Shown: one piece after another, positions 26,083 to 46,096 of the stretch
How positions within the stretch are numbered: the first letter of the stretch is position 1
How the letters are laid out: each line of letters starts with the position of its first letter
From: Cladorhizidae sp. MBARI D1340-BT2
Lineage: Eukaryota; Porifera; Demospongiae; Poecilosclerida; Cladorhizidae
Reading direction: 5' to 3'
Length of the DNA stretch: 64,000 bases
Assembly: GCA_028752905.1 (NCBI GenBank)
Contig: JAQNBH010000011.1
Coordinates: 28,610,678 to 28,674,677, forward strand
Notes under the pieces: model-generated
Database searches by the model: none
Seen by the model: the letters and a program-made list of their open reading frames with translations, nothing else
What the model was told of the DNA's origin: nothing
Translations under genes and position numbers: made by a program

Positions 26083-28687
26083 TTATATTCCAATAACAGG
26101 ACTATAATTTGTTTTTGTGCCACAATAGATCGTGGGTGCTCGCGATTCCAGCGTGGCATAGCCATATGCCACATTCCTGGCAGTATCACTGGCTGTCAGA
26201 TCGCTTCTGTTGCTGGTAGTATAAGTGCAACGTCCTCGACTGCACTTCCCAGATGTTGCAGGGGTCTTTATTGGGAAGTGGAGGAAAGGAAGCCTCTTGA
26301 TAATGGAGCTGCACCCAGCTCTGCGTCAGCTACAATAACTTCCTATTATCTCCTTGGCCAGCTGAATCCTAACTTCTTGATCGTAAGTTCACTTCCGCTT
26401 CCTGACCATCCTTTGTGCAGAATGAAGGTGTTTGTGATAGCCACATTGATCAGAAAGTAAAATATGTATTTGTAGAATTTCTGCTTTTCACCTGACACCT
26501 ATAATATCCTTTGATCTGATCACCTTTGTCCACGCCTCCCATGTATTTATTGTAGGCTAGGGGGCAGCTTATTTCCTCTGCTGCCAATGCTCTTATACCT
26601 AATCACTGAGGTGACACTCTTGGGGTCGCTGTTGATACATAAGCATGACGATCTTTCTTTTTGTGTGCTCTATAGCTCCATCTGTGTGCTCTATAGCTCC
26701 ATCTGTGTGTTCTATAGCTCCATCCGTGTGTTCTATAGCTCCATCCGTGTGCTCTATAGCTCCATCTGTGTGTTCTATAGCTCCATCTGTGTGTTCTATA
26801 GCTCCACCTTTGTCCACGCCTCCCATGTATTTATTGTAGGACTGTATAGCTAGGGGGCAGCTTATTTCCTCTCTGCTGCCAATGCTCTTATGCCTAATCA
26901 CTGAGGTGACACTCTTGGGGTCGCTGTTGATACATAAGCATGACGATCTTTCGGTCCTGCCATGCATTTGCACACACTTTTCCACATTGCGTGGTTAGTG
27001 ACTGGCCCCTAAAAATGTTTAGAAGTTCATATAATGTGTATCTCATAGTTGGGGTAAATAACATGCATGACCTGATATACAACCCCAAAATGTTTGTGGC
27101 ATAACACTAACTTGTGTTTATCTAGTGCAATTTTACCTTTTCTTGAATTTGGCTTTCTTCAGCTCCTCGGGGAAACCACGCCTGTCTTTCCTGGCTGTCC
27201 CACATCCATAAATCCCTCTCCTCTCCAAATCAACCAACAGACTATGCGAGGTAAAAAAGCTGTCAAAGTACATGTGGTGCCACTTGCCCTGTAGGTCCTC
27301 AGTTAGCCACTCTTGCCCCCAAGTGGTGCTCAACTGCACCTTTCTTTTCCCCCGTGTAAATCTCGAACTGTGTGAAAAAACCGTTTCGGCTATCAGCCCG
27401 AACCCACACCTTGATTCCTCTTTTGATGGGTTTCATTGGCATGTATTGCTTCAGTGATGAATGACCTTGAAAGTTTATCATAGCCTCATCGATTGCAATC
27501 TCGCAGTTAGGCCTGTATATTGATGAAAATTTGTGTTGAAAATGGCTGAGAAGAGGTCGGATTTTCCCCAGCCTGTCATAATTTTCACTGCCCCTTGGGG
27601 AAAGTGTACAATTGTCTACAAAATGTAGAAACCTTGTAATTGTCCTGTACCTATCCCTGGATATTCTTTGGGATATCGGTTTATAATTGTGGATGGGATC
27701 CCTCTTCCAATAGTCGTCTGTGGATGGCTGGTGATTAATTCCCATAAGAATGCTGAAGCCTATGAATGCTCGTATATCATCCTCTGTAATTTCTTTCCAA
27801 GAAACATAGGCTTCAGCACCCATGACTTCTTCAGCATACTTATTTGTTTGATCCACTATCTCTTCCACTATGTTAGGTGTTTAAAAAAAGTTCAAATACC
27901 TCCAGTGGTGATTCCTGTATAGGAACTGTAGGTCCTACGGAATATGTGAATGGATGAATTGTAGGGGTCACTAGGTTTGGTGACCAAACTGGAGGCAATG
28001 TCTGTGTGGAAGAGACAGTGGATGGCAAGGCTGAGGAGGTGGCAGTGGAAGGAATGAAAGAGGGTGATGGTTGGATTTGTTGTTGAGTTGGTATAATGTT
28101 GAGTTGGGGCTGGGGTGTGTAAGTAGGTGTGGTTGATACTGATGTTGGTTGAGGCATGGGTGTGGTTGATTCTGATGTAGGTAGAGGTGGAAGTCATTGT
28201 GGTCAATACCGATGTGGTTTGAGGCTGGGGTGTGGTTGATACTGATGTGGTTTGAGGCTGGGGTGTGGTCGATACTGAAGTAGATATGGAAGTGCATGTT
28301 GTCGATAGCGATGGTGGTAAAAGGTGGCAGGTAGCAGTAGTGTTTACAGAGTCTGATGTGAAAGCAACCACGGAGTCTTTTACTGAGATGGGTGTGATAA
28401 AAGCGGCATTCATTTGGGTCGATGGGTTGGGTAAAGGTGTCTTGTGTAATGCGGCAGGTATCGCGAAGGAATGAGCATCTTCCTCTTCCATGTCTAAATA
28501 TATTACATGTATATATAATTATTTTATATATATATTTTATTATATTATTCAACATTTGTTCACTAAAATTTCCTTACCTTCCTGCAGATTCCTCATCACT
28601 TCCATCTGCAAATGGCTCATCCAAGTCCCCATCTCCATCCAATGCCTTGTGGACCTCCTCCAAAGACAAACATTCTCTTTTTGCCAT
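26083..28687 (-). pseudogene. piggyBac transposase (two exons, frameshifted)
   Basis: Cut-and-paste transposase, DDD type. Exon 1 (28687-28578) reads MAKRECLSLEEVHKALDG with an acidic tail, then a GAAG|GTAAGG donor; an acceptor TTTAG lies before 28493. A Pro/Thr/Ser-rich linker follows (repeats of TTPQPQTTSVS). The core starts near 27930 (SPLEVFELFLN), then VDQTNKYAEE, the first aspartate in AIDEAMINFQGHSSLKQYMP (about 27430), the second in HHMYFDSFFTS (about 27260), and the third in YNKYMGGVDKG (about 26830, duplicated near 26535). The C-terminal part has NVAITNTFILHK (about 26430) and a cysteine-rich zinc finger (CQECGIWLCH) ending near 26083. All three aspartates remain, but at least three frameshifts and a repeat expansion break the frame, so it is dead as it stands. 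Confidence 0.9.
26527..26955 (-). repeat. Internal duplication with 21-bp repeats in the transposase
   Basis: A segment of about 140 bp encoding the third catalytic aspartate region occurs twice, at 26527-26665 and 26809-26952 (shared words GTGACACTCTTGGGGTCGCT and CCATGTATTTATTGTAGG). Between them are about seven 21-bp repeats (GCTCCATCTGTGTGTTCTATA) that read GAIEHTD on the minus strand, in frame with the preceding GGVDKG. Confidence 0.9.
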
Positions 28688-29096
28688 TATAGTTATCCTA
28701 TTTTTAATATGTATAAGTCATAATTGTTTTCAAGTTTTCAAAAAAAATGTTATAGTAAGTCCTATATGTGACAGGCTCTGGGAAAAGGGCCCACTTCGCG
28801 CAGATATTGAAATTGAGATACAACCTAAAACAATGCCTAGGCCAAAATTTTATAAAATCCATTTTATTAGCTTATAAGTATCTATTATCTTTTAGCTAAC
28901 TTTCTGTGAAGTTTGATGACCTAAAAGCGTCTGCTTCTTGCCGAGCGTAGCCTTAGAAAACTCGGACTCAATTCTTCTCTACGCGTAACCGAGATTGAAG
29001 TTTAACTGCCGGCGGAAGAATACTACGTGCACACGGAAGTATGGGAGTTACCCGCGCGCCTTTATAACTCGTTACCACAGTAACAACAGCTGCAGA

Positions 29097-30615
29097 ATGT
29101 CTTTTCAAACTAGTGCTGCTAGAGCTGTGAATGGTTTGCTTCACTTTTGTGAGAAAGACCAACAACCCTTGTTGGATATCTTACAAGACTACTTCAACAC
29201 TCCTTTTGAAGGAGAAATGGACAGTGATGATGTGACTGGAGCAGCAAATCATGGCAGGTTTAGTGAAGACATAGGTGTCCATAGCCAAAAAAAAATATCA
29301 TCTACTGAATAGCTGAATAGCAAAATATACACTGTATTGACAAAAATTTGTATTTAGGAGTAATGTGGAGTAATGTGTTGGAATTATAGTACATCTGTGT
29401 GCATACTATTTACAGAGACAGAACTTTTGTGCAATAGCAGAGTGGTAGAGGTTGGCGAGATGGGTGTGGAGGAGGAGATCAGTGAGGATGAAGAAATTAA
29501 GAAATTGAGGAGGAAGATTTGGACCGTGATGAGCAAGTGAGTGAAGCCCTGGAGAATCTTCACATGATTGATGGCATCGAACCAACTCTTTCCGACATCG
29601 AGGAAAATAAGCAAGTTGGAGATTTCTTGGATGCTGGATGTGGTTGTCGTCTTCGTGATGGGGGAAGTTTCTCTCTCCCATTTTCCTTGACAGCATGTCT
29701 TTGATTTCGCTCACACTGCAATTCCCAGACACACAATGAGTTGGACATCTTGCTTGGGCAGCTCATGGCTACCTCAAATTCGATGGAGATGGTTCGGCAT
29801 TCACTGTTGAGTCGACAGAAAAAGTACACAAAATATTACCATCAGGGGCAACCAGTGTGTCCTTCCATGTTTCGTTACCTTCACACTGTTGGCGAGAAAC
29901 GAATGAAGAACTTGGTGACACACTTCAAGGACAATGGGCTTGCACCACGTGTCCATGGAAACACCAGGCGTCTTCCTCACAATGCCCTTGCATTTGCTTA
30001 GGTAGAGTTTATTGTCAGATTCTTACTAAACTCTGCTGATCAGAATGGCCTGCTCCTTCCTGGTCGCATACCAGGTTATAGCAGATCTGACATCAAGCTG
30101 CTACCTTCTAGCGTGTCCAAGAGAGGGATCCGGAGGGTGTATTGTGAAGCTGCTAACTCCACACCCTGTGCATGTCCTGCTGCATACTCCACCTTCAATA
30201 TAAGCTCTGGCAGTCACTGCTTCCATCCATTATTATTATGAAACCTATGTCTGACTTGTGCTGGCAATGCCAACAGAACAGTACAGCTATCCTCCGAGCT
30301 GCTAACTGTCCTGATGTGGAGAAATGTGCTACTATAAAAGCAGCAGAAGAGCACCTTCAAATTGTGCAGCTGGAAAGGTCGTTCTACAAAACCACCTGTG
30401 ACGAGTGCTGGCGAGAAGTCCGGGAGTACTTCACCTGAAGATGAGAAGGATAGTACCTGTCCTTTGCCAGCTGTCCCCAAGCCTTCCAGCACTCCCTCCT
30501 CACCAACTGGTAATCAGAATAAAGAGGATTATCTTCCCTCTGCCAAGAAACACACTTGTATGATCTGCAGAAAGGAGGGACATAACAGTAGATCAGCAAC
30601 AATAAGTCTTTAACC
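29097..30615 (+). pseudogene. Element A protein gene, truncated homologue of element B protein
   Basis: Exon 1 starts with ATG at 29097 (MSFQTSAARAVNGLLHF, then LLDILQDYFNTPFE), parallel to exon 1 of element B (AAKAINSF, LLDVIEQYF). A likely acceptor is TTTACAG before 29415. Later pieces match element B in order: DAGCGC near 29630, LRDGGS, LDILLGQLMATSNS at 29738, RVHGNTRRLP near 29950, LLPGRIPGY near 30055, SDIKLLPSS near 30090, KPMSDLCWQ at 30241 and ERSFYKTTCDEC near 30375. The frame is broken repeatedly. After EVREYF (30430) the sequence jumps to a tail like that of element B (DEKDSTCPLPAVPKP), so the region equal to the last-exon catalytic-like domain is deleted. The tail ends with a small CxxC...GH zinc-knuckle-like motif (CMICRKEGH). 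A TTTATAA box lies at 29061. Function unknown; transposase-related by context. Confidence 0.8.
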
Positions 30616-30734
30616 AATGTTGTTGTAACGCTGTATAATAATAATTATTCTTGTCCTACTTTTTATCTAATAATAGTTTGTTCTAACAACAACAAAAGAG
30701 AGAAAACTGGGTTAGGACAAGTAGCCGGCTTACT

Positions 30735-31262
30735 GCTGACCTGAAACTAAGTTTAATAAACACTAACTGTAGGCTAGAAACAAGTTAACTATGGGCTAGA
30801 AACTAAACACTAACTATGGGCTAAATAAATAAAGGTTAACTGTGGGCTAGAAAACAAGTTAAACAAAGGCTAACTGTGGGCTAGAAAACAAGTTAAATAA
30901 AGGCTAACTGTGGGCTAGAAAACAAGTTAAATAAAGGCTAACTGTGGGCTAGAAAACAAGTTAAACAAAGGCTAACTGTGGGTTAGAAAAGAAGTTCAAT
31001 AAAGGCTAACTGTGGGCTAGAAAACAAGTTAAATAAAGGCTAACTGTGGGCTAGAAAACAAGTTAAATAAAGGCTAACTATGGGCTAGAAAACAGGTTAA
31101 ATAAAGGCTAACTGTGGGCTAGAAAACGAGTTAAACAAAGGCTACCTGTGAACAAAGGCTAACTGTAGGATAGAAATCAAGTTAAACAAAGGCTAACTGT
31201 GGGCTTATTAGAAAACAAGTTAAACAAAGGCCAACTGTGAGCTAGAGAACAAGTTAAATAAA
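30735..31262 (+). repeat. 34-bp tandem array in element A
   Basis: About 15 copies of a 34-bp unit composed of GGCTAACTGTGGGCTAGAA and AACAAGTTAAATAAA, with small indels. It is in the 3' part of element A and the same array, much longer, occurs in the truncated copy C at 43180-44610, so the repeat travels with the element. Confidence 0.93.
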
Positions 31263-31834
31263 AAAGTTACAGTTGGTGGGCTAGTACTATCTCTCACCTG
31301 CTTTTCCTCCCAAGAATAGCTGCTTGATTCATGGAGGCACGAAGTTTTGGGGGGCTCTAGTGGTGTTCAAAGTCCTTGGCTGCGCCGTGGAAGCGAACAA
31401 AAGCTCCTCCAAGAAGTGTGACTTCTCCACGAACTATGAAGGGCGTATCTTGTAGAATCACGTGCTACCTCAAAACGTGTAACGCGGAAGATTACGGAAA
31501 TAGAAAAATTCCCCGTAAGTAAACATTGAAAGACCGTTTTCATGGAATTATGGCCTTGTACTTAGATGTGTTAGATCGGTCGTAGCTCAGCAAACCAACT
31601 AGCTATGGTGACGCTTCTTAGACCATTTTGAAGGTAATAAGGTGTGCTATATCTTAGTGCCAATAACTCAAATTTTATATCTTGCGCGAAGTGGGCCCTT
31701 TTCGCAGAGCCTGTCACATATAATAAAGGCACTATCATGAACTTACAGTGTTATAGAGCAGTATCGCAGCAATGGATCCTTCGTAAAGAGTAAGACAGCT
31801 AGCCGATCGCGCGAATAAAAAGGCTGCTTGATAT

Positions 31835-31894
31835 GACGCCAATTGGCGTCTACCGCCGTTCAGAGCACGCACGGGCATGACGCCAATTGGCGTC
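31835..31894. promoter_or_regulatory. Paired subterminal palindromes of piggyBac element 1
   Basis: GACGCCAATTGGCGTC is a perfect 16-bp palindrome present twice (31835-31850 and 31879-31894), each followed by TA(C/T)CGCCGTT, just inside the right end. Subterminal repeats near an end are where piggyBac-type transposases commonly bind, so a binding role is inferred. Confidence 0.55.
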
Positions 31895-31914
31895 TATCGC
31901 CGTTAATCGGTTAA

Positions 31915-32362
31915 ACTGCGTTAGTCGACTACTATAGTCGCCTCAATTGAACTTTACGTAATTGCGAAGGGCCGCCCGCTCCATGCTAAATTATTAGTTG
32001 GATCTCGAGCATTGGAGCTAAACTTAGCTTTGCGCATCATGTTTTTTTGGTGCGGTGATCGGCACCTGCTTGTTCTAGAGCAGACGTTTCTTACGTTGAC
32101 TTGCCATTCTAAGCTTCTTACTTGCTTTTGCAGCGCCGACTATTCCAGCTCACAAATTCTTTCTCTTTTCCAATCTTGCTCACCTCGCCGAACCCTGAAC
32201 TCTAAACTGTTTGCAAGCTCTGCGCAGTTCTAGTTGCTGAACTCCACCTTCTTGATCTCACAACTCCACCCTCCAAATTTACCAACAAGCTCCTCCCTGA
32301 AGAATTTCATTATTAGCAATTATTCTGAACCCTAGACCTTATCAAGTTCATGGTGATATATA
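31915..32362. other. Region between the piggyBac genes, no gene seen
   Basis: About 450 bp between the right end of piggyBac element 1 and the second piggyBac gene. An ORF at 32012-32233 has no recognisable motif. It may be the upstream part of piggyBac element 2, but I could not find that element's terminus. Confidence 0.5.
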
Positions 32363-33850
32363 TGAGTGATGGAGACTTTGATGGTTACCTTGAAGGAAAG
32401 TTATTTACTACAGCAAGAGCAATAAAATACAATATAAATAACCAATAAATATTCTTTTTATTATAGATGTTGGAGATGAAGGTGCTGATAATGAATGTGA
32501 AGAGGGCGAGGTTCCAGGTGAAGAGGGCGGCGAGGTTCCAGGTGAAGAGGGCGGTGAGGTTCCAGGTGAAGAGGGTGAGGTTCCAGGTGAAGAGGGGGTG
32601 AGGTTCCAGGTGAAGAGGGTGAGTTCCAGGTGAAGAGGGTGAGGTTCCAGGTGAAGAGGGTGAGGTTCCAGGTGAAGAGGGTGAGGTTCCAGATGAAGAG
32701 GGCGAGATACGAGATGAAGAGTGCGAGGTTCAAGGTGGGGGGCATGAGGTTGAATGTGATGGGTGGGATGATGTTAGTTTGCATAGTGAGGATGGAGCGG
32801 GAGGTGGTTATGACATAGACGAGGAAGAAGGCGATGCAAGTGGCATGGTGGTATCTTCTGTTCTTCTGTTGGTGGGCCTAATAAGGTGTGGTCGAGCCTC
32901 TGGATACTTTCGAACAATTATTCACGTCAATATCATCAAGGATATCTGGTGTGAAACGAACCGGTATGGGAAACAGTACTTGGCAAGTCACCAGCAGCAC
33001 CTTGATGAACACCCACAAGCAAGAGAGCATGACTTCATCCGCCACCTGTTCACGCTGGAAGAAATGTATAGGTAAATGACATAAGGCCAGTAAGCTTACA
33101 ATAAAATATTAATTAGCAATTGTTACACACCTCTAACCTTGTCACTCTCACACACCTCAATATTTGCATAAATACATGATGGTGCAAATATTAACCCACA
33201 AAGCTTTCATCTTATATCAAAACCTGTGCAACCTCAGATTACATGCAAAACACACATTACAGGCAGCATTTATTTTTTGCCACCAATGACAGGACACACA
33301 GTTATACTTTACTATACAGATTCATCGCAATGGTGATTCTAATGTCTAATGGGAGTGCTGGATTATCCCACTCCCCAGAGCTACTGGAGCAGAAGTTGCC
33401 CATTACATATCCCTACATTCTCCACCATAATGTCAGGAGATAGGTTTTTGTTGTTGCTCAATTTTTTACACTTGACCAACAATGAGAATCAAGTAGGACG
33501 AGGTCAACCAGGACATGATCAGCTATTCAAGATCCGGACATATATGACAGCACTGGTGTAAAGGTTTCAGGCATCTTACACGTTGCATCGGGAAATTGCA
33601 TGACTGGTTTCAAAGGGCGTTTATTCTTCCTTCAATACATGCCCCCAAAACCCACAAAAGTGGGCATTGGTACTGGCCAACTCAAAGACAGCATATACAT
33701 GGAATTGGTCACTATATGCAGGAAGGGAGGACTATACCTCCAAATATTCATTGGCCACACGCGTTGTGTTACATCTAGTAACAAAATTACATAACTTTGG
33801 ACATCACCTCCAGGATTTCATCCAGAAGTTCTTGCAAGAGGGGGCATAAT
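32363..33850 (+). pseudogene. piggyBac transposase 2, fragmentary
   Basis: A second, diverged piggyBac gene on the plus strand. A possible first exon starts at 32363 (MSDGDFDGYLEGK), with an acceptor TTATAG just before 32467. The acidic region that follows contains a run of 21-bp repeats (GEVPGEEG). Core pieces: PLDTFEQLF near 32895, ETNRYGKQYLASH near 32955, then RFLLLLNFLHLTNNEN near 33440 and QLFKIRTYM. GFKGRLFFLQYMPPKP at about 33604 is the block around the first aspartate, but the residue before it is lost at a frameshift. Matches then fade (VVLHLVTKLHNFGHHLQDF near 33780). The second and third aspartates are not seen. It is dead and probably lacks its 3' half. Confidence 0.75.
32502..32725 (+). 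repeat. 21-bp acidic-coding repeat in piggyBac 2
   Basis: About ten copies of a 21- to 24-bp unit GAGGTTCCAGGTGAAGAGGG encoding GEVPGEEG. Copies of unequal length shift the frame, so the ORF passes from an acidic reading to RFQVKRV. Confidence 0.85.
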
Positions 33851-34319
33851 GGTGTGTTCCAAAATTTAGGGGGGACAACATGTACTGTAAGCATGTGAAG
33901 TGTGGCCGTAGCTAGTGGGGTCTCCCCGGGGAAATTTTGAAAAAATTGATTCTCTGAGACGCATTCTGGTGCATTCTCAGCACAATATTCAATGTTTTAG
34001 TCATCATAAGTACTGCATATGATGGATAGATTCCTCCTCACCAAAAGCCCATAATCAGCATGATTGTGCAGCTAATTCAGCTAAGTATTGTCTCAGAAAG
34101 TGTATTTACAGAGTACATAATGTATTACATTAATAGTTTTGTAGCTAGATGCAATTGTGTCATAATCTAGAACGTTCTGTTCATGTGCTATTATTCTGTG
34201 GTTGTACTCTTTGATACTAAAATATTTTTCATGGGTATAAAGATAGCCAAGTTACTTTAGCTAAAGTGGGGGTACCTAAAAACCTGAATGCCTGTGGTTC
34301 TGCATAAATATCCAGATTG
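33851..34319. other. Unassigned sequence
   Basis: No coding region or repeat recognised in about 470 bp between the second piggyBac remnant and the hAT remnant. Confidence 0.5.
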
Positions 34320-34713
34320 CTAAGTGTTAACGATTTCAAATAAGTACCTGAGGCTAGAGAAAGCTATACTCTACGCAATGAGTGTTTTCATTAGGCACAA
34401 AAATGTAGGTACGTGGTCAAGCATGCAAAAGGAAAAAATTATCGATCACTACGGTGCATATGATGCAGAGCTGCCTGCGGAGACTGTGCAGAGTGATGAA
34501 TATATACCAAGGAAGCTCTGATATCCACTGAACTCAGAACAGAGTGGAAAACATTTCGTAGCTACCTATCCAAGCAGCCGAAAGGAACTTTGTACTCAGA
34601 GCAAACCAAACTCAGTAGTGAGGAAATGCTGAGAACAATCTTCCCCAACATCAGCACTCTGGCAAACATCTGTCTCACTATTCCTGTTAGCACTGCCACT
34701 AGTGTCTTCTCTC
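34320..34713 (+). pseudogene. hAT transposase C-terminal (dimerisation) remnant
   Basis: After a frameshift near 34515, the reading from about 34530 gives EWKTFRSYLSKQPKG, then LSSEEMLRTIFPN, ISTLANICLTIPVSTATS. This matches the C-terminal dimerisation region of hAT transposases, usually FPxLxxLAxxxLxIPxSxAxxERxFS. The expected ERSFS part is missing because the sequence runs into the TA-rich minisatellite. The preceding ORF (34324-34521; MQKEKIIDHYGAYDAEL) is probably the upstream part of the same protein. The catalytic domain is absent. Family call moderately sure; lineage unknown. Confidence 0.65.
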
Positions 34714-36028
34714 ATTTATATATATATTGAGCAAGTTATGATGGCGTACCACTAGTGTCCTCTCTCATTATATATATAGAGCAAGTTATGATGGCGTGCC
34801 ACTAGTGTCTTCTCTCATTATATATATATATAGAGCAAGTTATGATGGCGTGCCACTAGTGTCCTCTCTCATTATATATATATAGAGCAAGTTATGATGG
34901 CGTGCCACTAGTATCCTCTCTCATTATATATATAGAGAGCAAGTTATGATGGCGTGCCACTAGTGTCCTCTCTCATTATATATATATATATTGAGCAAGT
35001 TAGTTATGATGGCGTGCCACTAGTGTCCTCTCTCATTATATATATATATAGAGCAAGTTATGATGGTGTGCCACTAGCGTCCTCTCTCATTATATATATA
35101 TAGAGCAAGTTATGATGGCGTGCCACTAGTGTCCGCTCTCATTATATATAGAGCAAGTTATGATGGCGTGCCACTAGTGTCCTCTCTCATTATATATATA
35201 TATATAGAGCAAGTTATGATGGCATGCCACTAGTGTCCTCTCTCGTTATATATATAGAGAGAGCAAGTTATGATGGCGTGCCACTAGTGTCCTCTCTCAT
35301 TATATATAGAGAGAAAGTTATGATGGTGTGCCACTAGTGTCCTCTCTCATTGTATATATAGAGAGAGCAAGTTATGATGGCGTGCCACTAGTGTCCTCTC
35401 TCATTATATATATATATATATATATTGAGTCAGTTATGATGGCGTGCCACTAGTGTCTTCTCTCATTATATATATGTATAGAGCAAGTTATGATGGCGTG
35501 CCACTAGTGTCCTCTCTCATTATATATATATATATTGAGCAAGTTATGATGGCATGCCACTAGTGTCCTCTCTCATTATATATATATATAGAGCAAGTTA
35601 TGACGGCGTGCCACTAGTGTCCTCTCTCATTATATATATATATATATATAGAGCAAGTTATGATGGCATGCCACTAGTGTCCTCTCTCATTATATATATA
35701 GAGAGAGCAAGTTATGATGGTGTGCCACTAGTGTCTTCTCTCATTATATATATATAGAGAGCAAGTTATGATGGCGTGCCACTAGTGTCCACTCTCATTA
35801 TATATATATATAGAGCAAGTTATGATGGCATGCCACTAGTGTCCTCTCTCATTATATATATATAGAGAGCAAGTTATGATGGCGTGCCACTAGTGTCTTC
35901 TCTCATTATATATATATATAGAGAGAGAGCAAGTTATGATGGCGTGCCACTAGTGTCCTCTCTCATTATATATATATAGAGAGCAAGTTATTATGGCGTG
36001 CCATTAGTGTCTTCTCTCATTATATATA
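34700..36028 (+). repeat. TA-rich minisatellite of about 52 bp per unit, left part
   Basis: About 24 units made of GCAAGTTATGATGGCGTGCC, ACTAGTGTCCTCTCTCATTA and a (TA)n tract of variable length. The first unit starts at CCACTAGTGTC inside the last readable hAT codons. Element B interrupts the array at 36028 and it resumes at 42063. Confidence 0.95.
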
Positions 36029-36639
36029 TGTGACAGGATTTGGGAAAAGGGACCTTATCGCGCAAAAATAAATATATGAGTTAGCTAGACCATGTTGAAG
36101 CCCGATTTATAAGGTTCAAAATAAGCCTTGTATCAAGTCTAGAGCTGCTCTGACACCGAAGATATGAGCGAGAGCTTCAGGTTTAAGTATTGGCTAAAAC
36201 CGTGACTATTTCAATAACTGGGCGTTGTAGTTGACGACGAAAGCTAAAATGTTTACTCCGTAAATTACCGTGTTACGAACGGGTGGGGCTACTTTTGCTG
36301 GGAAAGAAACGATGTAAATAGCTATAGCTGTTGTCTGACAAAGTGAAACTATGGAACGCTGGCTATCTAAAACTATAGAACGCTGGCTAACTAACTAAGA
36401 CTGTGGACTTCGAAGCAGACGCTGTCGAAAGTGGGGCGGTACTTTCGGGAAAGAAGTGATCGAAGACTGTGAATTTCCAGTCATTCGCTTAAAGATTCAT
36501 CCAAAACAGTCTGGATTTGTACTGGGAGTAAGCGCTAGCCAGGTCTAGCACTAGGCATAAATAAGTAGAGTATGTACAGGCTAGCATTAATAATTATTAG
36601 CATACATTAAAAAAGGACAAATTTGCAATGTACAGTAGC

Positions 36640-36785
36640 GACCAAAAAAAACTTTACATACCGTTGCGTTGGGTAAACGTTCAACGCAGAAACGTTTCTT
36701 AAGAAACGCTCAAGCAACGCTCAAGGAACGCACAGATAACGCTCAAGCAACGTATTGCGAACGCAACGCACGATCCGTTATTTAA
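36640..36785. repeat. Subterminal AACG-rich repeats of the mariner, left end
   Basis: Series of AACG-containing words (CTCAAGCAACG, CTCAAGGAACG, CGAACGCAACG), mirrored by 38850-39000 at the other end (TTAGCGAACG, ATGGCGAACG, TTCGGCGAACG). Probably a cluster of transposase-binding repeats; that role is inferred. Confidence 0.55.
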
Positions 36786-37619
36786 TTACCCGAAATGCGC
36801 AATCAACATTCGGTATCCTACACCAAGTGTTCGATAGAGCGCGTAAAGTCAAGTCAGTCGGCCTACTGTTGATTACTGTTCTGTTTTGTTGCAGCTTCTA
36901 CTTTTGATTTGTCCTGGGAATGGCTCACAGAAGAACTCTCGCTGCCACCTTCCTCTGAGCAGTAAGTATAACACTAGGTAGAACTCCAATGGCTAGCGCC
37001 TATCTGTGGTAGTTACCCAGCCTTTACTTCAGTCTAGTTGTTAGTGTTACATACAGTATTTAAAACGAAACCCCCCAAAATAAAACTAGAACAGTGGATC
37101 CAGTAATGATAATTATACTGACTATCGTTTGGTCTTCTGGCAGAATGAAAGTTCTGGGTGGCTGTACCAAGCAGCAATGTTTTAGGGTGCTCCTCAATGG
37201 GAGTGGGAGGCCAAGGCAGTGAGGGTGATATATAATGGCAAGATTTCAGCTATTGTTAAGTTTTAAATCAAATTCTTTATATCAAGTTCAGGTGTGATTT
37301 ACTATTTTGAAATGCAGTTACCAGGCAGCCATGGAGGAAGAATTCAAGCCTGTCATGGAAGACGAGGATTACAGTTCTTCACTCTACATCTGTGGTGGCG
37401 GGGTCAGAACTGGACTTGTTCAATAACTATATAGTTGTTTTTGAAATTATCATTATTTTATATCTTCTTATTGATAATTTAATAAGAAAATTTAACATCT
37501 CTAACTACCCAAACACACGAAAGTTTTGCCAACTTGATATCACAAGTGATTTCCAAATAAACCTCCCCATGGCAGGTGTCTGTTCTACTTCTGACATCTA
37601 CAGTTAATCAAAATTGTGT

Positions 37620-37850
37620 TATGCTGTCCACCAATTCAGCTTTGGACTTGGGCTTCACTTCTCTCCTGATGTACTCTTTCAAACTCGTGTCACAGGTCTT
37701 CAATGGGGTTGGCATCTTGAAACTCAGGAGGCATCCTCCATCAATTTATATCGAACTCTTTAGCCAGCCTGGATGTACGTTTGGGGTCAGTGTCCTGCAT
37801 GAAGCGGTGATGGGAGCAAACATCCTTTACAAAGGGTAACAAGGGTCTAG
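37620..37850 (-). pseudogene. Tc1/mariner transposase fragment
   Basis: The minus strand reads RFMQDTDPKRTSRLAKEF, then PPEFQDANPIEDL, then HEFERVHQE. This is the Tc1/mariner catalytic block around the second aspartate (commonly FMQDNDPKHTS) and the third acidic region (PPxSPDxNPIENLW). In-frame stops replace a tryptophan after INx and the tryptophan after IEDL. The HTH region and first aspartate are not recognised elsewhere in the element, so the transposase is dead. Confidence 0.75.
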
Positions 37851-39028
37851 TGAAGAATTTGAACAAAAAGTGGGGCTCTCATAATACTGGCCCACACATT
37901 TACCTTCACCAAATGTTTCACGCTATAATAAAATAAACAGGTTTAAAACAAGAGTATAAATCTACACCTTATTACACACACAACCATAATACAACATGAA
38001 TCATATCTTAGCTTGTTCTTTCGTGTCTGCCTTATACAACCAAAAAAAGCCTATATATGTGTTTCCAATTGAACTGTGCACTCGTCTGTGCTCTTCAAGG
38101 TTCTGTATCTCGCTCCAATCTCTTGACCTAGGACAGGGATAAATGATACTGCTATTGATCATGTTATTACATTAGTCACTATACCAATTCACCAGTGTTC
38201 TATATCAATATCTTGCCCTAGAATTAAGCCATAACATCTACAAAGTCCCTAAACTATATATATATATATATTTTTTTTAATCCAATGGCTTATCCCCATC
38301 AGCACATTGGCTCTAACCAAAATACCATCAAGACCCAGGCCTAGATTATCATTAGCCACTAACAACCAACATAGCTTCAGTGTGACACAGAAAGCTTCTA
38401 CACTAGATATTAACTTTCACATAGTTCCATCCCAAAACTAGTTCAACACAAGCGTCTCTTATCAGTTGGCATTACCTCTGCCTCAAAATATCAACATAAG
38501 CAATGTCCTGCAAAGCAAGACTGGGTTCCCTTCGCTGTGAAGGAGAACTGCAGTTGGTATGCTGTCTTCTCATCATCTTCCAGCATCTTTACCACCACCG
38601 CTCCACGGCTGTAAGGCGATACCTGTCTCGCAGTGCTTGACAAAACTGGACGCATTGCCTTGTTGCTGTCAGGCTCTCCTTCAAAATACAGACGATAGCT
38701 GCAGCCTTGAATCCTCTAGATCCTAAAGAATACAATTCTGTTTCTTCTAATAGAATAAGGCATCTTGATTCTGAAAAAGAATAAACGCTAGAGCAATGAC
38801 AGTTAGCCTTCGTCGATCTGGTATGCGCTAGAGAAATTCAATTTTACAACGCTCAATTGACGATCCCTGCCTAACGTTTTTGGCCAACGTTTAGCGAACG
38901 TATGGCGAACGTTCGGCGAACGTTTGTCTAACGGTACAGCAACGCTGCGACTCAAACGTACCACAAACGTCCAACGCAAACGGTACGTAAAGTTTTCTTT
39001 TACCTCTACTGTAGCTTCCTACTGTTAG

Positions 39029-39904
39029 TTATGTGGTGTGTTTGAGATTGAGATGAGATTCCACTTCATTGTTCAGAAGTTGGGGGGTACTGCTCCTGCT
39101 TGTTGGTTTTGGATTTGGGGGTAATGGACAGGTAGTGTCTTTGTCAGAGTCAGGACAAAATTGCCTGATATTCTCATACAGGTACCATTGCCGTTCAAGA
39201 GTAAGACCCTTGGGATGTATTACAAGTGGCAAACCATTCTGTTGCGGTTTCCAAGTATGTTTGAAGAGTTTGATCTCCTGTTCCACTGTGTCACATCGGT
39301 CCCTCACGAACACACTGTCAGGAACACGGCTATCAAAGAAAAAGTGATGGAGTTTTTTAATGCCAATGATCTTCTTGAAGTGAGTTGCAAAAAGAGTACT
39401 CCAATCGAATGTTGGTACAATGACTGCTTCATCTTCGGTTGCAACTAACTGAGCGAAGTTACAATCTGCAGATAAATTGACAACACTTGCTAGGCCACTC
39501 AATGTCCCTATCTTCGTCCTTCTGTATTTCCTCTTCAGAAGACCAAAGCACCAATCTGGTGAGAACTTTGTGTGCCCTACCACCAAAAATGACAACGTGA
39601 TTTTGTTGTACCTTCCTGTTAGAGTCCTCCACAACAAGTACTGCATCATACAATTGTTCTTGTTCTGTCCCGTGCAATTATCAGCATGGAGGAACACTTC
39701 TGTCTCTCCAAGTCCATGAGTCTCAAGGAAGTGATGAAGCTGGCTCACCACAACATTGGCGCCTTTGCCACAATCGCTGGCCTCATCAGTCAGGTAGTTC
39801 ACCTGCCTCGGAATTCCTTCGCAGTGTACACCAAAGATACTGCACTTCCGAGGTACAAGAAAGTACATGGGACCTGGCTGGAGAGGATCTGAAGGATAGT
39901 GCAC
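39029..39904 (-). CDS. Element B protein, exon 3 (DNCTGQNKNN domain)
   Basis: Open for 291 codons and preceded by an acceptor (TTTGATAG|GTGCAC), so it begins at a codon boundary as VHYPSDPLQPGP. Notable words: FLVPRKCSIFGVHCEG, RQVNYLTDEASDCGKGAN, HADNCTGQNKNN (residues 75-84), LLWRTLTGRYNKITLSFL, GHTKFSPDWCFGLLKRKYRR and a Pro-rich tail. The spaced acidic residues and the DNC-GQN motif look like an RNase H-fold DDE nuclease core, but this is inference. I recall similar motifs in uncharacterised transposon-encoded proteins of invertebrates (possibly the domain catalogued as DUF7869); this was not checked. No stop or frameshift is visible in this exon. Confidence 0.75.
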   Translation of the reverse strand: MHYPSDPLQPGPMYFLVPRKCSIFGVHCEGIPRQVNYLTDEASDCGKGANVVVSQLHHFLETHGLGETEVFLHADNCTGQNKNNCMMQYLLWRTLTGRYNKITLSFLVVGHTKFSPDWCFGLLKRKYRRTKIGTLSGLASVVNLSADCNFAQLVATEDEAVIVPTFDWSTLFATHFKKIIGIKKLHHFFFDSRVPDSVFVRDRCDTVEQEIKLFKHTWKPQQNGLPLVIHPKGLTLERQWYLYENIRQFCPDSDKDTTCPLPPNPKPTSRSSTPQLLNNEVESHLNLKHTT

Positions 39905-40311
39905 CTATCAAAGAAGGTAACAATGTCATGTGAATAAATCTTTATTCCCCTACTATCCAAAATATATCCAAAGTAGTATGATTTATATTTTTTGTCTCAT
40001 GCAGTTATCAGTAACACTTCGTCTCTTCTGGGTAATGCATATCCAAAATTATGGCACATGATTAAAAGAAACCAAGGAGTGCAGGTAAACCAACATAAAT
40101 ATCCTATGACACTCCCACACTTTTGTCAATAACTGAATGTTAAGGTGCTATTCTAGTGTGATAATACTCTCAACACCCAAATAAATGACCCCTCTCTGAC
40201 ATTGTACACATTGTAGATACACAACCATGGGATAAGCTACTTAACACCCTGTTGAACATAGCTAGTACCTATAGGATTTATAGTAATACACACCATTTGT
40301 GTAATACATAC

Positions 40312-41502
40312 CATTTGTGCGTAATCAAAGGAATAATGAGCTTTGATGTCTCTCGAATTTGCAGGTGTGAGTGCAGACAAAGGAGGTGGCTGGAATGAGA
40401 CATTGGTTGGGAAGAGAGATCTGATTGACCTCTTACATTCGTCAGATTTGGTCCTATAAAATGACCTTTCGGTTGTCACAATTCGGAGATGCTCCAGTGC
40501 ACTGGCAAGTGCTTCTTTCTGTCTTCTCAGACTCTGAGGAATTTACAGCTCGCACAACAGTGGTACTATTACGCTGGCGTTGCCAACACAAATCCGACAT
40601 TGGCCGCATGAGAATGATCGAGGGAAGAAGAGTTCGCCACAAGTTACAGAACGTCGAGTATGCAACAGCATGAAAAATGGTCATTTCCACTGCTGCCGTG
40701 TATATATTCCATATGCCACGTTTGGAGGTGCTTGAGGGTAGAAGCTTGATGTCACTCTGTCGATAACCTGGGATGCGACCTGGAAGAAGCAAGCCATTCT
40801 CTTCTGTGTAATTGAGTAGGAAATGTACCATGTTCTTAATCGACACTAGTGATAGAGTGTACTTTGGTAAACGCTTCGTATTTCCATGTACGCGAGGAAG
40901 AATACCGTTGTCAAGGAAGCTCTTGGTGATGTTTTTGAAACGCTTCAGACCAATGGTATGTAAAAAGAGGAATGTTTCTTGACAAATTTGTCGACTCTGG
41001 TGTTGGTACGATACGCGAATTCGAACTCTTTTAGCAGCAGTGTGCCTGGCTTCCGTGGAGGTTGACTCACTAGTGTTCGCCAAAGCCAGAAGTTGCCCCA
41101 TGATCAACATGTCAAGTTCACAGTGTGAGAGCTCGAAGCATTTTGATCTGACTTCCTGTACATGACCCACAGAAAACTGTGCTGAACAGCTCCGTCCCCT
41201 CCACTTCAGGCAACCACAACCTGCAGACATGAACATTGTGATTGATTTTTCCTCATCTAAGTCAGTCGGCCGATACTCTACTTCTGTATCACAAAGACTG
41301 GACAATCGTGCCAAGGCCAAATCGGTCTCTGATGGAGTTCCTGGTTCATCCAACTCGCCATGCAGATCATCAGTTTCACTATCATCCATTGCATCCATTA
41401 CTCCCTGCACATCCATCTCATCATTTCTGTCACCCTGCTCATCCATTGCATCCATCTCATCTTTTCTGTCACCATGTTCTTCAGATCCTTCCTTGTCAAG
41501 TT
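40312..41502 (-). CDS. Element B protein, exon 2
   Basis: Starts after an acceptor (TTGATATAG|AACTTG) and ends at ATG|GTATGT. It reads an acidic repeat region (MDAMDEQGDRNDEMDVQGV), a cysteine pair (SAGCGC), CELDMLIMGQLLALANTS, then RVHGNTKRLP, LLPGRIPGY, SDIKLLPSSTSKRG, MRPMSDLCWQRQ and, in the next frame, TTERSFYRTKSDECKR and HYSFDYAQM. The shift at about 40514-40526 is one surplus base: exon lengths 145 + 1191 + 876 leave exactly one extra nucleotide. Either the copy carries one disabling frameshift or the assembly has a single-base error. Without it the protein would be about 736 residues. Confidence 0.8.
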
Positions 41503-41574
41503 CTATATCAATTTATTTTATAATAATTATCTAAATCTTAATGAGAAATGAGGTAGCTACCATTGTCTACTTAC

Positions 41575-41719
41575 CTTCAAATGGAGGATCATTGTCCTCA
41601 TCATCCTCATTGGTGAAATACTGCTCAATTACATCTAGCAGTGCCAGCTGGTCTCCTGAGGAATAGCTGCTAAAAGAATTAATAGCCTTAGCTGCCTCAT
41701 TACTACTTATCCAAGCCAT
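41575..41719 (-). CDS. Element B protein, exon 1
   Basis: ATG at 41719; reads MAWISSNEAAKAINSFSS, then LLDVIEQYFTNEDDEDNDPPFE and a GAAG|GTAAGT donor at 41575/41574. The phase-1 junction to exon 2 keeps the frame (FE-E-LDKEGSEEHG). It is homologous to exon 1 of element A, which supports this start. Confidence 0.8.
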
Positions 41720-42062
41720 TGCAGCTGGCAGTGTTTATGTGGTTCCATAACAACCGCAGTATGCCGGCCGTATGCTAATTGGAGAATGACGTAATGCTAA
41801 TTGAACTTTTACTGCGAAGTCACTCCGTATACGCGTTATTCTACGCAATGGAAAACTTGACGACAAGTTTTCGAACTGTTATTTTAACCTGTTCTGGACT
41901 CAACCTAGACACCAAACTTGGTACAGAGGTAAAGGAAAGATTCTAGAGAGTGCTAAAGTTAAAAAAATATATATAAGAAAAAGTGACCCATGCATACTTT
42001 TTGTGCTATAACTCAAAATCATTTTCTGCGCGATAAGGTCCCTTTTCCCAAATCCTGTCACA

Positions 42063-42661
42063 TATATAGAGCAAGTTATGATGGCGTGCCACTAGTGTCC
42101 TCTCTCATTATATATATATATATATATATATTGAGCAAGTTATGATGGCGTGCCACTAGTGTCCTCTCTCATTATATATATATATTGAGCAAGTTATGAT
42201 GGTGTGCCACTAGTGTCTTCTCTCATTATATATATATATAGAGCAAGTTATGATGGCGTGCCACTAGTGTCCATTATATATATATAGAGCAAGTTATGAT
42301 GGCGTGCCACTAGTGTCCGCTCTCATTATATATATAGAGAGCAGGTTATGATGGCGTGCCACTAGTGTCTTCTCTCATTATATATACATTGAGAAAGTTA
42401 TGATGGCGTCCCACTAGTGTCCTCTCTCATTATATATATATTGAGCAAGTTATGATGGCGTGCCACTAGTGTCCTCTCTCATTATATATATATAGAGAGC
42501 AAGTTATGATGGCGTGCCACTAGTGTCCTCTCTCATTATATATATATTGAGCAAGTTATGATGAGTGTCCTCTCTCATTATATATATAGAGAGAGCAAGT
42601 TATGATGGCGTGCCACTAGTGTCTTCTCTCATTATATATATATATATATATAGAGCAAGTT
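42063..42661 (+). repeat. TA-rich minisatellite of about 52 bp per unit, right part
   Basis: Continuation of the array at 34700-36028 beyond element B; about 11 units, same consensus and same orientation. Confidence 0.95.
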
Positions 42662-43127
42662 ATCTACCTAGGCACAGCTTATAAGTAATGTAGCAAGTGA
42701 ACTTCGATGAGAGCTAAGAAGCTTGATTTACCCGCTAAGTTCACTGTTGTATCACTACAATTACTACCAGTAAAACAAACGCTAGCGCTAGCTAGAGCTA
42801 CTGCTGGATAGAGCGACACTAGCTAGCTAGATTTACTGCTAGCTACAAATGAATGACGCTAGCGCTATCTAGATGGACTGCTGGCTACCAAAGAAACTAA
42901 AAGCTTGATTACTAAAAACGAAGGCTAGCTATAAGGATCACAAAACAAGCAAAAAGAAAGTAACTAAACAATTCTAATTACAGCTCACCATTTATCTTTA
43001 CACGAAGAAAAATCCAGAGTCCATGGTAGAGTTTATATTCTCCCCCAATCTTTGATGAGTCTTCAAGGCAACTTTTCGAACCCGGAAGAACAGAGAAAGG
43101 CGAAATAGAGAAAAGAGAAAGAAAACT
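42662..43127. other. Unassigned sequence before copy C
   Basis: About 470 bp with no recognised coding region. It has several GCTAGC-rich words (ACGCTAGCGCTAGCTAGAG) forming local palindromes. It may be part of copy C that has no match in element A. Confidence 0.45.
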
Positions 43128-45052
43128 GGGTTAGGACAAGTAGCCGGCTTATTGCTGAACTGAAACTAAGTTTAATAAACACTAACTGTAGGCTAGAAAG
43201 AAGTTAACTATGGGCTAGAAACTAAACACTAACTATGGGCTAAATAAATAAAGGCTAACTGTGGGCTAGAAAACAAGTTAAACAAAGGCTAACTGTGAAC
43301 AAGGCTAACTGTGGACTAGAAAACAAGTTAAACCAGGCTACCTGTGAACAAAGGCTAACTGTGGGCTAGAAATCAAGTTAAACAAAGGCTAACTGTGGGC
43401 TAGAAAGCAAGTTAAACAAAGGCTAACTGTGGGCTTCTTAGAAAACAAGTTAAACAAAGGCTAAATGTGGGCTATCAAACAAGTTCAATAAAGGCTAACT
43501 GTGGGCTAGAAAACAAGTTAAATAAAGGCTAACTGTGGGCTAGAAAAGAAGTTCAATAAAGGCTAACTGTGGGCTAGAAAACAAGTTCAATAAAGGCTAA
43601 CTGTGGGCTAGAAAGCAAGTTAAACAAAGGCTAACTGTGGGCTTCTTAGAAAACAAGTTAAACAAAGGCTAACTGTGGACTACAAAACAAGTTAAATAAA
43701 GGCTAACTGGGCTAGAAAACAAGTTAAATAAAGGCTAACTGTGGTCTAGAAAACAAGTTAAATAAAGGCTAACTGTGGGCTAGAAAACAAGTTAAATAAA
43801 GGCTAACTGTGGGCTAGAAAACAAGTTAAATAAAGGCCAACTGTGGGCTAGAAAACAAGTTGAACAAAGGCTAACTGTGAACAAGGCTAACTGTGGGCTA
43901 GAAAACAAGTTAAACAAAGGCTACCTGTGAACAAAGGCTAACTGTGGTATAGAAATCAAGTTAAACAAAGGCTAACTGTGGGCTAGAAAGCAAGTTAAAC
44001 AAAGGCTAACTGTGGGCTTCTTAGAAAACAAGTTAAACAAAGGCTAACTGTGGGCTATAAAACAAGTTCAATAAAGGCTAACTGTGGGCTAGAAAACAAG
44101 TAAAATAAAGGCTAACTGTGGGCTAGAAAAGAAGTTCAATAAAGGCTAACTGTGGGCTAGAAAACAAGTTCAATAAAGGCTAACTGTGGGCTAGAAAGCA
44201 AGTTAAACAAAGGCTAACTGTGGGCTTCTTAGAAAACAAGTTAAACAAAGGCTAACTGTGGACTACAAAACAAGTTAAATAAAGGCTAACTGTGGGCTAG
44301 AAAACAAGTTAAATAAAGGCTAACTGTGGGCTAGAAAACAAGTTAAATAAAGGCTAACTGTTGGCTAGAAAACAAGTTAAATAAAGGCTAACTGTGGGCT
44401 AGAAAACAAGTTAAACAAAGGCTAACTGTGAACAAGGCTAACAGTTAACTGTGGGCTAGAAAAGAAGTTAAACAGAGTCTACCTGTGAACAAAGGCTAAC
44501 TGTGGGCTAGAAAGCAAGTTAAACAAAGGCTATCTGTGGGTTTCTTAGAAAACAAGTTAAACAATGGCCAACTGTGAGCTAGAGTACTAGTTAAACAAAA
44601 AAGTTACAGTTGGTGGTTCAACACAGCTAGTAAAATCTCTCACCTGCTTTTCCTCCTAAGAATAGCTGCTTGATTCATGGAGGCCTGAAGTTTTTGGTGG
44701 CTCTAGTGGTGTTCTAAGTCCTGGGCTGCGCCGTGGAATCGAAGAAAAGCTCCAAGTAGCGTTACTTTTCTCCACGAACAATGAAAGGCGTATCTTGTAG
44801 AATCACGTGCTACCCCAAAATGCGTAACGCGGAAGATTACGGAAATCAAAATTGTCGTAAACATTCAAAGGCCGTTTTCTTGCCTTGTACTTAGCTGTGT
44901 TAGATCGGTCGTAGCTCAGCGAACCAACCAGCTATGATGATGCTTCTTAGACCATTTTGAAGGTAATAAGGTGTGCTATATCATAGTGCCAATAACTCAA
45001 ATTTTATATCTTGCGCGAAGTGGGCCCTTTTCGCAGAGCCTGTCTGTCACAT
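43128..45052 (+). mobile_element. TIR element C, truncated relative of element A
   Basis: From GAAAACTGGGTTAGGACAAG at 43128 it parallels element A from 30702, then the 34-bp array, then the unique 3' sequence (CACCTGCTTTTCCTCC, CGCGGAAGATTACGGAAAT) and the terminus GCGCGAAGTGGGCCC, GAGCCTGTCTGTCACA, which has a 4-base duplication (CTGT) compared with A. No left terminus or protein gene is present. Confidence 0.85.
43180..44610 (+). repeat. 34-bp tandem array in copy C
   Basis: About 40 copies of the same 34-bp unit as at 30735-31262, with variants such as GGGCTTCTTAGAAAACAAG placed at intervals. A longer block of about 590 bp appears twice (compare 43290-43700 with 43870-44280), so the array also grew by block duplication. 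Confidence 0.93.
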
Positions 45053-45390
45053 AATTATGATAATGAAGGGATTACTAGCTAACAATAATATAATATTAAA
45101 ATAATATATGCATGTATTAAGTCTATACACATTCTAACATAATCATTTCCCCCTTTATTTCCTCTTCTCTCCAGATCATCACAATCATTGGAGTAGGAGT
45201 GATTGATTGTTTTGGTTGTCTACAGTTGGAACTGTAGCTTTTCTGGTAAAAAAATATCAAAGAAAAGGACATTAACATATATGATTTTTTGGTCAATAGG
45301 GATTGTAAATTATTGAATTTTGTGGGATAAATTATATACTATACATATGTGCAGCTTTAACTTTTTTCACTGATGTTATAGTAAACCTCT
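45053..45390. other. Unassigned AT-rich sequence
   Basis: About 340 bp between the end of copy C and the RT fragment; no coding signal. The RT would be expected to continue here on the minus strand, but its catalytic box is not found. Confidence 0.5.
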
Positions 45391-45890
45391 CTAATTGTCT
45401 CCCCCCTTAGTGTATATTGTTCCCCCCAAACACGGGAGGCACAGGCATAGTATGGCGGTGACATTAATTAGGGAATAGTATATTCCTAGGACAGTTTTAC
45501 TAGTTATAAATGGCATATGCATGAAGGCATACTTGCCCCACGGTGTGCAAAATGCTGTTTTGTCCTGGCTTTTTCTACTCAAGGGAACCTGATAGAAGCC
45601 TTTGTTAAGGTCCAGTTTCGATAACCAGCTGAGACCTGATTTAGTAAGTCCTCAATACATGGCATTTGATAGGGATCCGAAATAGTAATCTTGTTTAGCC
45701 TTCTATAGTCGATGCAAAGCCTCACCTGTCCAGTACTCTTTTTTCTGAGAGGCACCATTGTTGATGACCATGGGCTCTTTGATGGAACAATAATGCCTTT
45801 CCTAAGGAGATCATCAATCTCTCCCTTCAAATCATCAACCATGCCTGGAGCAATACGATAAGGGTGAGTTCTCAAAGGATAATCTTCTTT
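45391..45890 (-). pseudogene. Ty3/gypsy reverse transcriptase, N-terminal half
   Basis: Reverse transcriptase copies element RNA into DNA. ORF 45579-45875 reads LRTHPYRIAPGM-like linker sequence, DDLLRKGIIVPSKSPWSS, VRLCIDYRRLNKITI and DPYQMPCIEDLLNQV, all gypsy RT blocks. The next ORF (45391-45582) has QDKTAFCTPWGKYAFMHMPF. The catalytic YxDD box and RNase H are missing, so it is truncated. It follows the integrase end at 46097 on the same strand within about 220 bp, through a linker resembling the usual pre-RT region. Confidence 0.85.
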
Positions 45891-46096
45891 GACATTAATT
45901 CATTCTCTTCAAATTTTGCAACACCTATAACTCGATCACTGAATTAGGCAAGCCGCAGGTCTAACCTGAGGTGCTGTTCCTCAGTTAAGTGAGTACCACT
46001 CATGCTAACCTTCCCAATAGGTTCAGGATTGACTTCAGACTCATCTGCCACTATATACAACACGAAACAAGTTGGCAGTTGGGGTCTTCCAAGCTT

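Follow-up and report, generated by a model that had tools for sequence, protein, structure and literature searches.

A transposon family with a DUF7869 transposase candidate and AWWT target sites in a cladorhizid sponge, and its bacterial relatives

We analyzed a 64,000-nucleotide stretch of DNA (the window) from contig JAQNBH010000011.1, here called C2, of the 857-Mb genome of the sponge Cladorhizidae sp. MBARI D1340-BT2. The window holds two elements, A and B, and one fragment, C, of a family of DNA transposons with terminal inverted repeats (TIRs), and the gene of B encodes a protein with the Pfam domain of unknown function DUF7869. An earlier description based on the letters alone (the sequence-only reading) had proposed such a TIR family in three copies, with an unassigned protein as its presumed transposase. 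The features of the family, in window coordinates, are as follows.

28764..28767, plus strand: left target duplication of A, ATAT (flank sequence; at least 40 empty sites)
28768..31717, no strand: element A, 2,950 bp, a non-autonomous copy of the L032/L046 subfamily
28768..28802, plus strand: left TIR of A, beginning GTGACAGGCTCTGGGAAAAGGG... (inverted-repeat search)
29400..30595, plus strand: remains of the decayed transposase gene of A, which has lost its catalytic part (tblastn pieces 29400-29447, 29501-30214, 30202-30435, and 30434-30595)
31683..31717, minus strand: right TIR of A (inverted-repeat search)
31718..31721, plus strand: right target duplication of A, ATAT (flank sequence)
36026..36029, plus strand: left flank of B, ATAT, part of the TA run in a minisatellite unit (flank sequence)
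36030..42061, no strand: element B, 6,032 bp, both ends complete, gene on the minus strand
39029..39904, minus strand: exon 3 of B, the DUF7869 domain, with the D2 codon at 39680-39682 and the D3 codon at 39554-39556 (PF25273 match; alignment to protein P0003)
39905..40308, minus strand: intron 2 of B, GT-AG, interrupting FDYAQ(M)^VHYPSD (by inspection; absent from the intact relatives read)
40309..41502, minus strand: exon 2 of B, with a frame change near 40517-40521 and the codon of the putative catalytic D1 at 40321-40323 (tblastn against P0003)
41574-41503, minus strand: intron 1 of B, GT-AG (placed by inspection of the sequence)
41575..41719, minus strand: exon 1 of B, from ATG, donor GTAAGT at 41574 (gene model by inspection)
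42062..42065, plus strand: right flank of B, ATAT (flank sequence)
43111..45050, no strand: C, the 3' remnant of an A-type element with a right TIR only (match to A 30694-31716)

The inverted arms, including flank, span 40 nt in A (28763-28802/31683-31722) and 46 nt in B (36023-36068/42023-42068), and both are 98% complementary; the TIRs within the elements are approximately 35 to 40 bp (98%). In A and B the element proper starts with GTGA and ends with TCAC, and the junctions of A read CCT-ATAT / GTGA...TCAC / ATAT-AATA. The flanks, which the sequence-only reading gave as TA or TATA, read ATAT. The terminal motifs it had singled out recur in the window beyond expectation, with TGTGACAGG present four times (0.76 expected) and GGGAAAAGGG three times (0.05 expected). 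Only A and B of the three proposed copies have both ends; for C we found a right end at 45050 and no left end, its match to A beginning at about 43111, and we rejected it as a full copy. The protein blocks said to be shared by A and B, and the segments HADNCTGQNKNN and GHTKFSPDWCFGLLK, are encoded as described. A and B belong to different subfamilies: their sole blastn match of at least 60 bp is 72 bp long, and their ends differ within GTGACAGGCTCTGGG / GTGACAGGATTTGGG. A search of window positions 28000-46000 against Rfam at the gathering score returned no match.

Comparison of A with the related copy L046 shows 89 to 91% identity in its two long matches, with about 840 bp between them (about L046 3644-4484) absent from A. 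The gene has thereby lost the stretch that corresponds to residues 351-632 of P0004, an intact relative, and with it the whole catalytic part, including all three aspartates described below; judged from its sequence, A is unable to encode a working enzyme. A-type elements also contain a 34-bp minisatellite (window 30826-31262 and 43250-44599), which is expanded in C and occurs in L032, L044, and L046 as well.

The gene of B has two GT-AG introns (41574-41503 and 40308-39905). Because of the frame change in exon 2 near 40517-40521, B reads as a former autonomous copy that is now defective. A Pfam profile search gave the protein the assignment that it had lacked: the last exon of B matches DUF7869 (PF25273) with an E value of 1.4e-18, and the bit scores of proteins P0001 (67.7), P0003 (61.5), and P0006 (72) are all above the gathering cutoff of 26. 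Among relatives that carry a name (most listed proteins have none), the nearest come from the sponges Halichondria panicea and Dysidea avara, and a more distant branch includes the corals Montipora capricornis and Oculina patagonica. One DUF7869 protein, P0148 of Candidatus Magnetoglobus multicellularis, is labelled a chaperonin in public records, very likely a misannotation. A literature search with the letters GQNKN gave unrelated matches only.

We searched the genome with exon 3 of B and obtained at least 137 matches, a few of which are single loci split in two. Paired TIRs of the same type surround 14 of 20 fetched gene copies; the termini and the gene therefore occur together elsewhere in the genome. 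Most of these 14 copies have one open frame of 650 to 710 residues, which covers the whole protein except, seemingly, the short first exon, and intron 2 of B is absent from the TIR-paired copies with the long open frame. The near-identical B copies on C2 have open frames of 291 residues, which suggest that they keep this intron.

The predicted fold of the DUF7869 protein is RNase H/integrase-like, in agreement with the suggestion that the last exon of B encodes an RNase H-fold nuclease core. Three conserved aspartates, D372, D451, and D493 (P0003 numbering; spacing 78 and 41), occupy the catalytic positions of the predicted model, with one acid on strand 1, a second following strand 4, and the third on the helix that follows strand 5, as in the DDE/D integrase-transposase fold. 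We read them as a putative DDD transposase triad. Retroviral integrase, the Mos1 mariner transposase, and the IstA/TnsB transposases have the same type of RNase H-like catalytic core, but sequence homology to them was not detectable, a search of PDB sequences with P0001 giving no match. The third acid of integrase is a glutamate, and that of the DUF7869 protein is an aspartate.

The protein is almost certainly the transposase, as the sequence-only reading had supposed; it would bind the TIRs and perform the cutting. A different view is that it is a passenger and that an unseen transposase moves the element, and the activity of the DUF7869 protein does rest on prediction here. However, in short intact copies such as L029, L037, and L042 (2.3 to 3.4 kb) the DUF7869 frame is the only listed frame of at least 250 residues between the ends, the predicted RNase H core with its conserved D/D/D is what a transposase would need, and bacterial elements of 2.06 to 2.34 kb are nearly filled by the same protein. 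We consider a passenger role very improbable.

Genome-wide, the end motif GTGAYAGGMTCTGNGAAAAGGG occurs with at most one mismatch 866 + 819 times (1,685 in total), and the reversed control gave 0 + 0. Facing ends form 19 pairs, in all but one of which the elements are 0.5 to 5 kb long, which indicates that many copies are short derivatives; the one doubtful pair, of 9.6 kb at C1:3730451, has unlike ends and may be two elements. The 19 pairs exclude another ten on C2 that duplicate ones already counted; four C1 pairs (28.77-29.91 Mb) are copies of one insertion. The flanks are identical in 18 of the 19 pairs (ATAT in 12, ATTT in 6) and, by script comparison, in seven of eight fetched copies (ATAT, AAAT, or AATT). 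Exact-TIR ends number 795; the base before GTGA is not T in 59 (19 of these are one repeat on C7), and 25 ends read BTAT, the three end patterns behind these counts differing slightly in their leading bases. Most ends retain the outer A and T while the W-W center varies, and the target is thus AWWT. The letters look the same whether all 4 bp of AWWT or just the inner 2 bp of A^WW^T were duplicated, a formal ambiguity; we took the published 4-bp reading.

At two places where a base other than T precedes GTGA, the 2.5 kb of sequence retrieved showed no partner end, and the flanks of two plus/minus pairs among such ends are not shared. A tandem array of transposon ends lies at C17:36504830-36505177, where seven TIR ends on one strand, each with A just ahead of its GTGA, fall within 350 bp.

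The presence of TA within most targets, with the inner two bases also duplicated, would suit a Tc1/mariner-like element with a TA target and a 2-bp duplication. A target of TA only was rejected, however, given that TT, AA, and AT centers occur (ATTT, AAAT, AATT) and that the outer bases are mostly retained; in addition, no Tc1 Pfam domain matched the transposase, and both the protein and the element length differ. A Tc1/mariner identity is accordingly a highly improbable account of the family.

Empty sites, which the sequence-only reading had proposed to look for, were found for two copies. When the flanks of A are joined with the duplication kept once, all 40 places scored, out of 426 candidates, align with them over the full length at 99%. 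With at least 40 such uninterrupted sites in the genome, the target into which A jumped was another dispersed repeat. For the intact copy L029, the joined flanks are identical (100%) to one place across 180 nt, and 39 more places match at 96 to 97%. These sites bear directly on the idea that the repeated ends are a satellite artefact rather than a product of transposition. That idea draws on the position of B, which is inserted in a 54-bp minisatellite unit, within its TA run, with the array on both sides (34694-36029 and 42062-42645), and on near-identical A and B pairs at four places on C2 (22.9, 23.5, 25.6, and 28.6 Mb), where A and B are 10.2 to 10.4 kb from each other. This recurrence indicates multiple duplications of a large segment on the contig, and those B copies, at least four, are segmental duplicates. 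Against an artefact, copies stand in differing flanks on many contigs, and the empty sites refute it for A and L029; as an explanation of the family it is hardly credible. With its inverted arms, duplications, empty sites, and ends throughout the genome, this is a real and abundant cut-and-paste family. The intact frames, near-identical ends, and 100% empty site suggest that it was probably active not long ago.

We scanned GTDB species genomes and found ten loci with relatives of the protein, the best seven with 35 to 37% identity over about 570 to 620 residues. Five of them (L051-L055) are TIR-bounded elements, 2.06 to 2.34 kb in length, each with a single long frame (635 to 668 residues). 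The bacterial elements (from Desulfocicer, Desulfobacterales, a Legionellales metagenome-assembled genome, and others) resemble the sponge ones in carrying the DUF7869 protein over nearly its full length, and the triad spacing in the two measured is the same, 78/41. Unlike B they are intronless, and their TIR tips read GGGG (once GGCG), whereas the sponge tips read GTGA.

To compare TIRs, we anchored one end each of six sponge copies (A, B, L029, L037, L042, and L038; the right end for L037 and L042) and of L051-L055 at the first base after AWWT; these eleven ends were chosen, are not independent samples, and leave out L056-L060. On average 17.0 of 36 positions were shared between bacterial and sponge ends, versus 9.65 with shuffled columns; none of 20,000 shuffles scored as high, and the agreement peaked at zero offset. 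All eleven ends have G at position 13 and AAAA at 16-19, and CTG at 11-13 occurs in three of six sponge and three of five bacterial ends. The other end of L037 departs from this with GAAA at 16-19. AWWT adjoins the TIR in nine of the ten ends of L051-L055 (the exception is the right end of L055), and both flanks are identical in two of the five elements; the right ends of L056 and L057 also have the bacterial motif, adjoining ATAT and AATT.

We placed 20 bacterial-type and 24 animal-type proteins in an unrooted tree, where the bacterial-type proteins fall on one side of a branch with support of 100/100; because the tree is unrooted, the direction of transfer is not readable from it. The bacterial elements are rare: each of five bacterial genomes has one copy, and a screen of 395 genomes from one phylum detected nothing beyond the starting genome. 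Of the 120 listed relatives of P0130, roughly 67 (counted by hand) are on contigs of 2.0 to 2.5 kb, a size that might fit assembler breaks at a repeated element, although short contigs are common in metagenomes. L058, from a Cycloclasticus symbiont bin of a sponge, has a frame that by eye is close to the sponge P0005 type, suggesting host contamination. A tblastn search of plasmids with P0003 found no relative, and we rejected a viral origin after a scan of viral contigs with A1 gave 22 pattern matches and no relative. What is new here is the DUF7869 assignment together with bacterial relatives whose sponge-like ends adjoin AWWT.

Among named superfamilies the likeliest is Sola2, as judged by analogy of target and triad with published descriptions. 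In the literature searched, AWWT and a transposon appear together only in PMC3627910, whose account of Sola2 gives 4-bp AWWT duplications (ATAT, AAAT, ATTT), as seen here. The description of Sola elements in PMC10741241 gives a DDD transposase, 4-bp duplications, presence in bacteria and metazoans, and TIRs of 11 to 1124 bp, a range that includes the 35 to 40 bp of this family. The dictyostelid Sola2 elements described in PMC3627910 differ, with TIRs of 12 to 21 bp versus about 35 bp and, in one case, an enzyme of 888 residues versus 650 to 710. Target and Pfam results did not point to KDZ, CMC, Kolobok, or other superfamilies, for which a sequence comparison was not made.

The DUF7869 elements might instead form a superfamily apart from Sola2, having in common with it no more than the AWWT target and a DDD enzyme. 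Consistent with this, the name DUF7869 was not found in the literature searched, no model matched above cutoff or clearly in NCBIfam (five proteins) or PHROGs (three proteins), and the word Sola is absent from the main text of Kojima and Bao 2023 (PMC10045372), which lists prokaryote-eukaryote transposon pairs. On the other side, target, duplication, triad type, and reported bacterial presence all agree with Sola and Sola2 as described in PMC3627910 and PMC10741241, and we regard separateness as unlikely, though deserving of some weight. A superfamily of its own common to bacteria and animals, with one enzyme, an AWWT target, and TIRs that agree position by position, is a doubtful but possible form of the family; if true, bacteria and animals would here provide a new prokaryote-eukaryote transposon pair, one that the published list does not contain.

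We therefore favor, with a probability of roughly 0.8, a cut-and-paste family with a single DUF7869 transposase, a DDD RNase H-fold, a 4-bp AWWT target, and Sola2 as its likeliest superfamily. Most likely, one transposase of about 650 to 710 residues, the C-terminal half of which is DUF7869, would pair the inverted ends, an RNase H-fold active site of D372, D451, and D493 would cut them, and insertion at AWWT would leave the 4-bp duplication. DUF7869, now found on uncharacterized proteins in sponge and coral records, would thereby gain a function, and annotators could label its genes as transposases. The animal and bacterial elements form a pair that corresponds in enzyme, target, and ends, and the TIR parts conserved between them may be interpreted as probable points of contact with the enzyme. 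If the Sola2 identity is true, a named superfamily is linked to a Pfam model and to a bacterial group without an NCBIfam match here (five proteins).

The window holds other mobile sequences outside the family, one of them nested in the 3' half of B.

36631..39013, no strand: Tc1-like element (inverted repeat 36631-36665/38979-39013, 35 nt, 83%)

TA adjoins the CAGTAG ends of this nested element, whose frames are decayed; it is Tc1-like by eye, and the single frame scanned had no Pfam match. Sequence resembling a retrotransposon reverse transcriptase, also by eye, lies at about 45560-45800 on the minus strand. Between A and B, fragments of a piggyBac-type transposase (Pfam DDE_Tnp_1_7, E value 2.6e-10) lie at 33343-33558, with a weaker stretch at 33519-33846.

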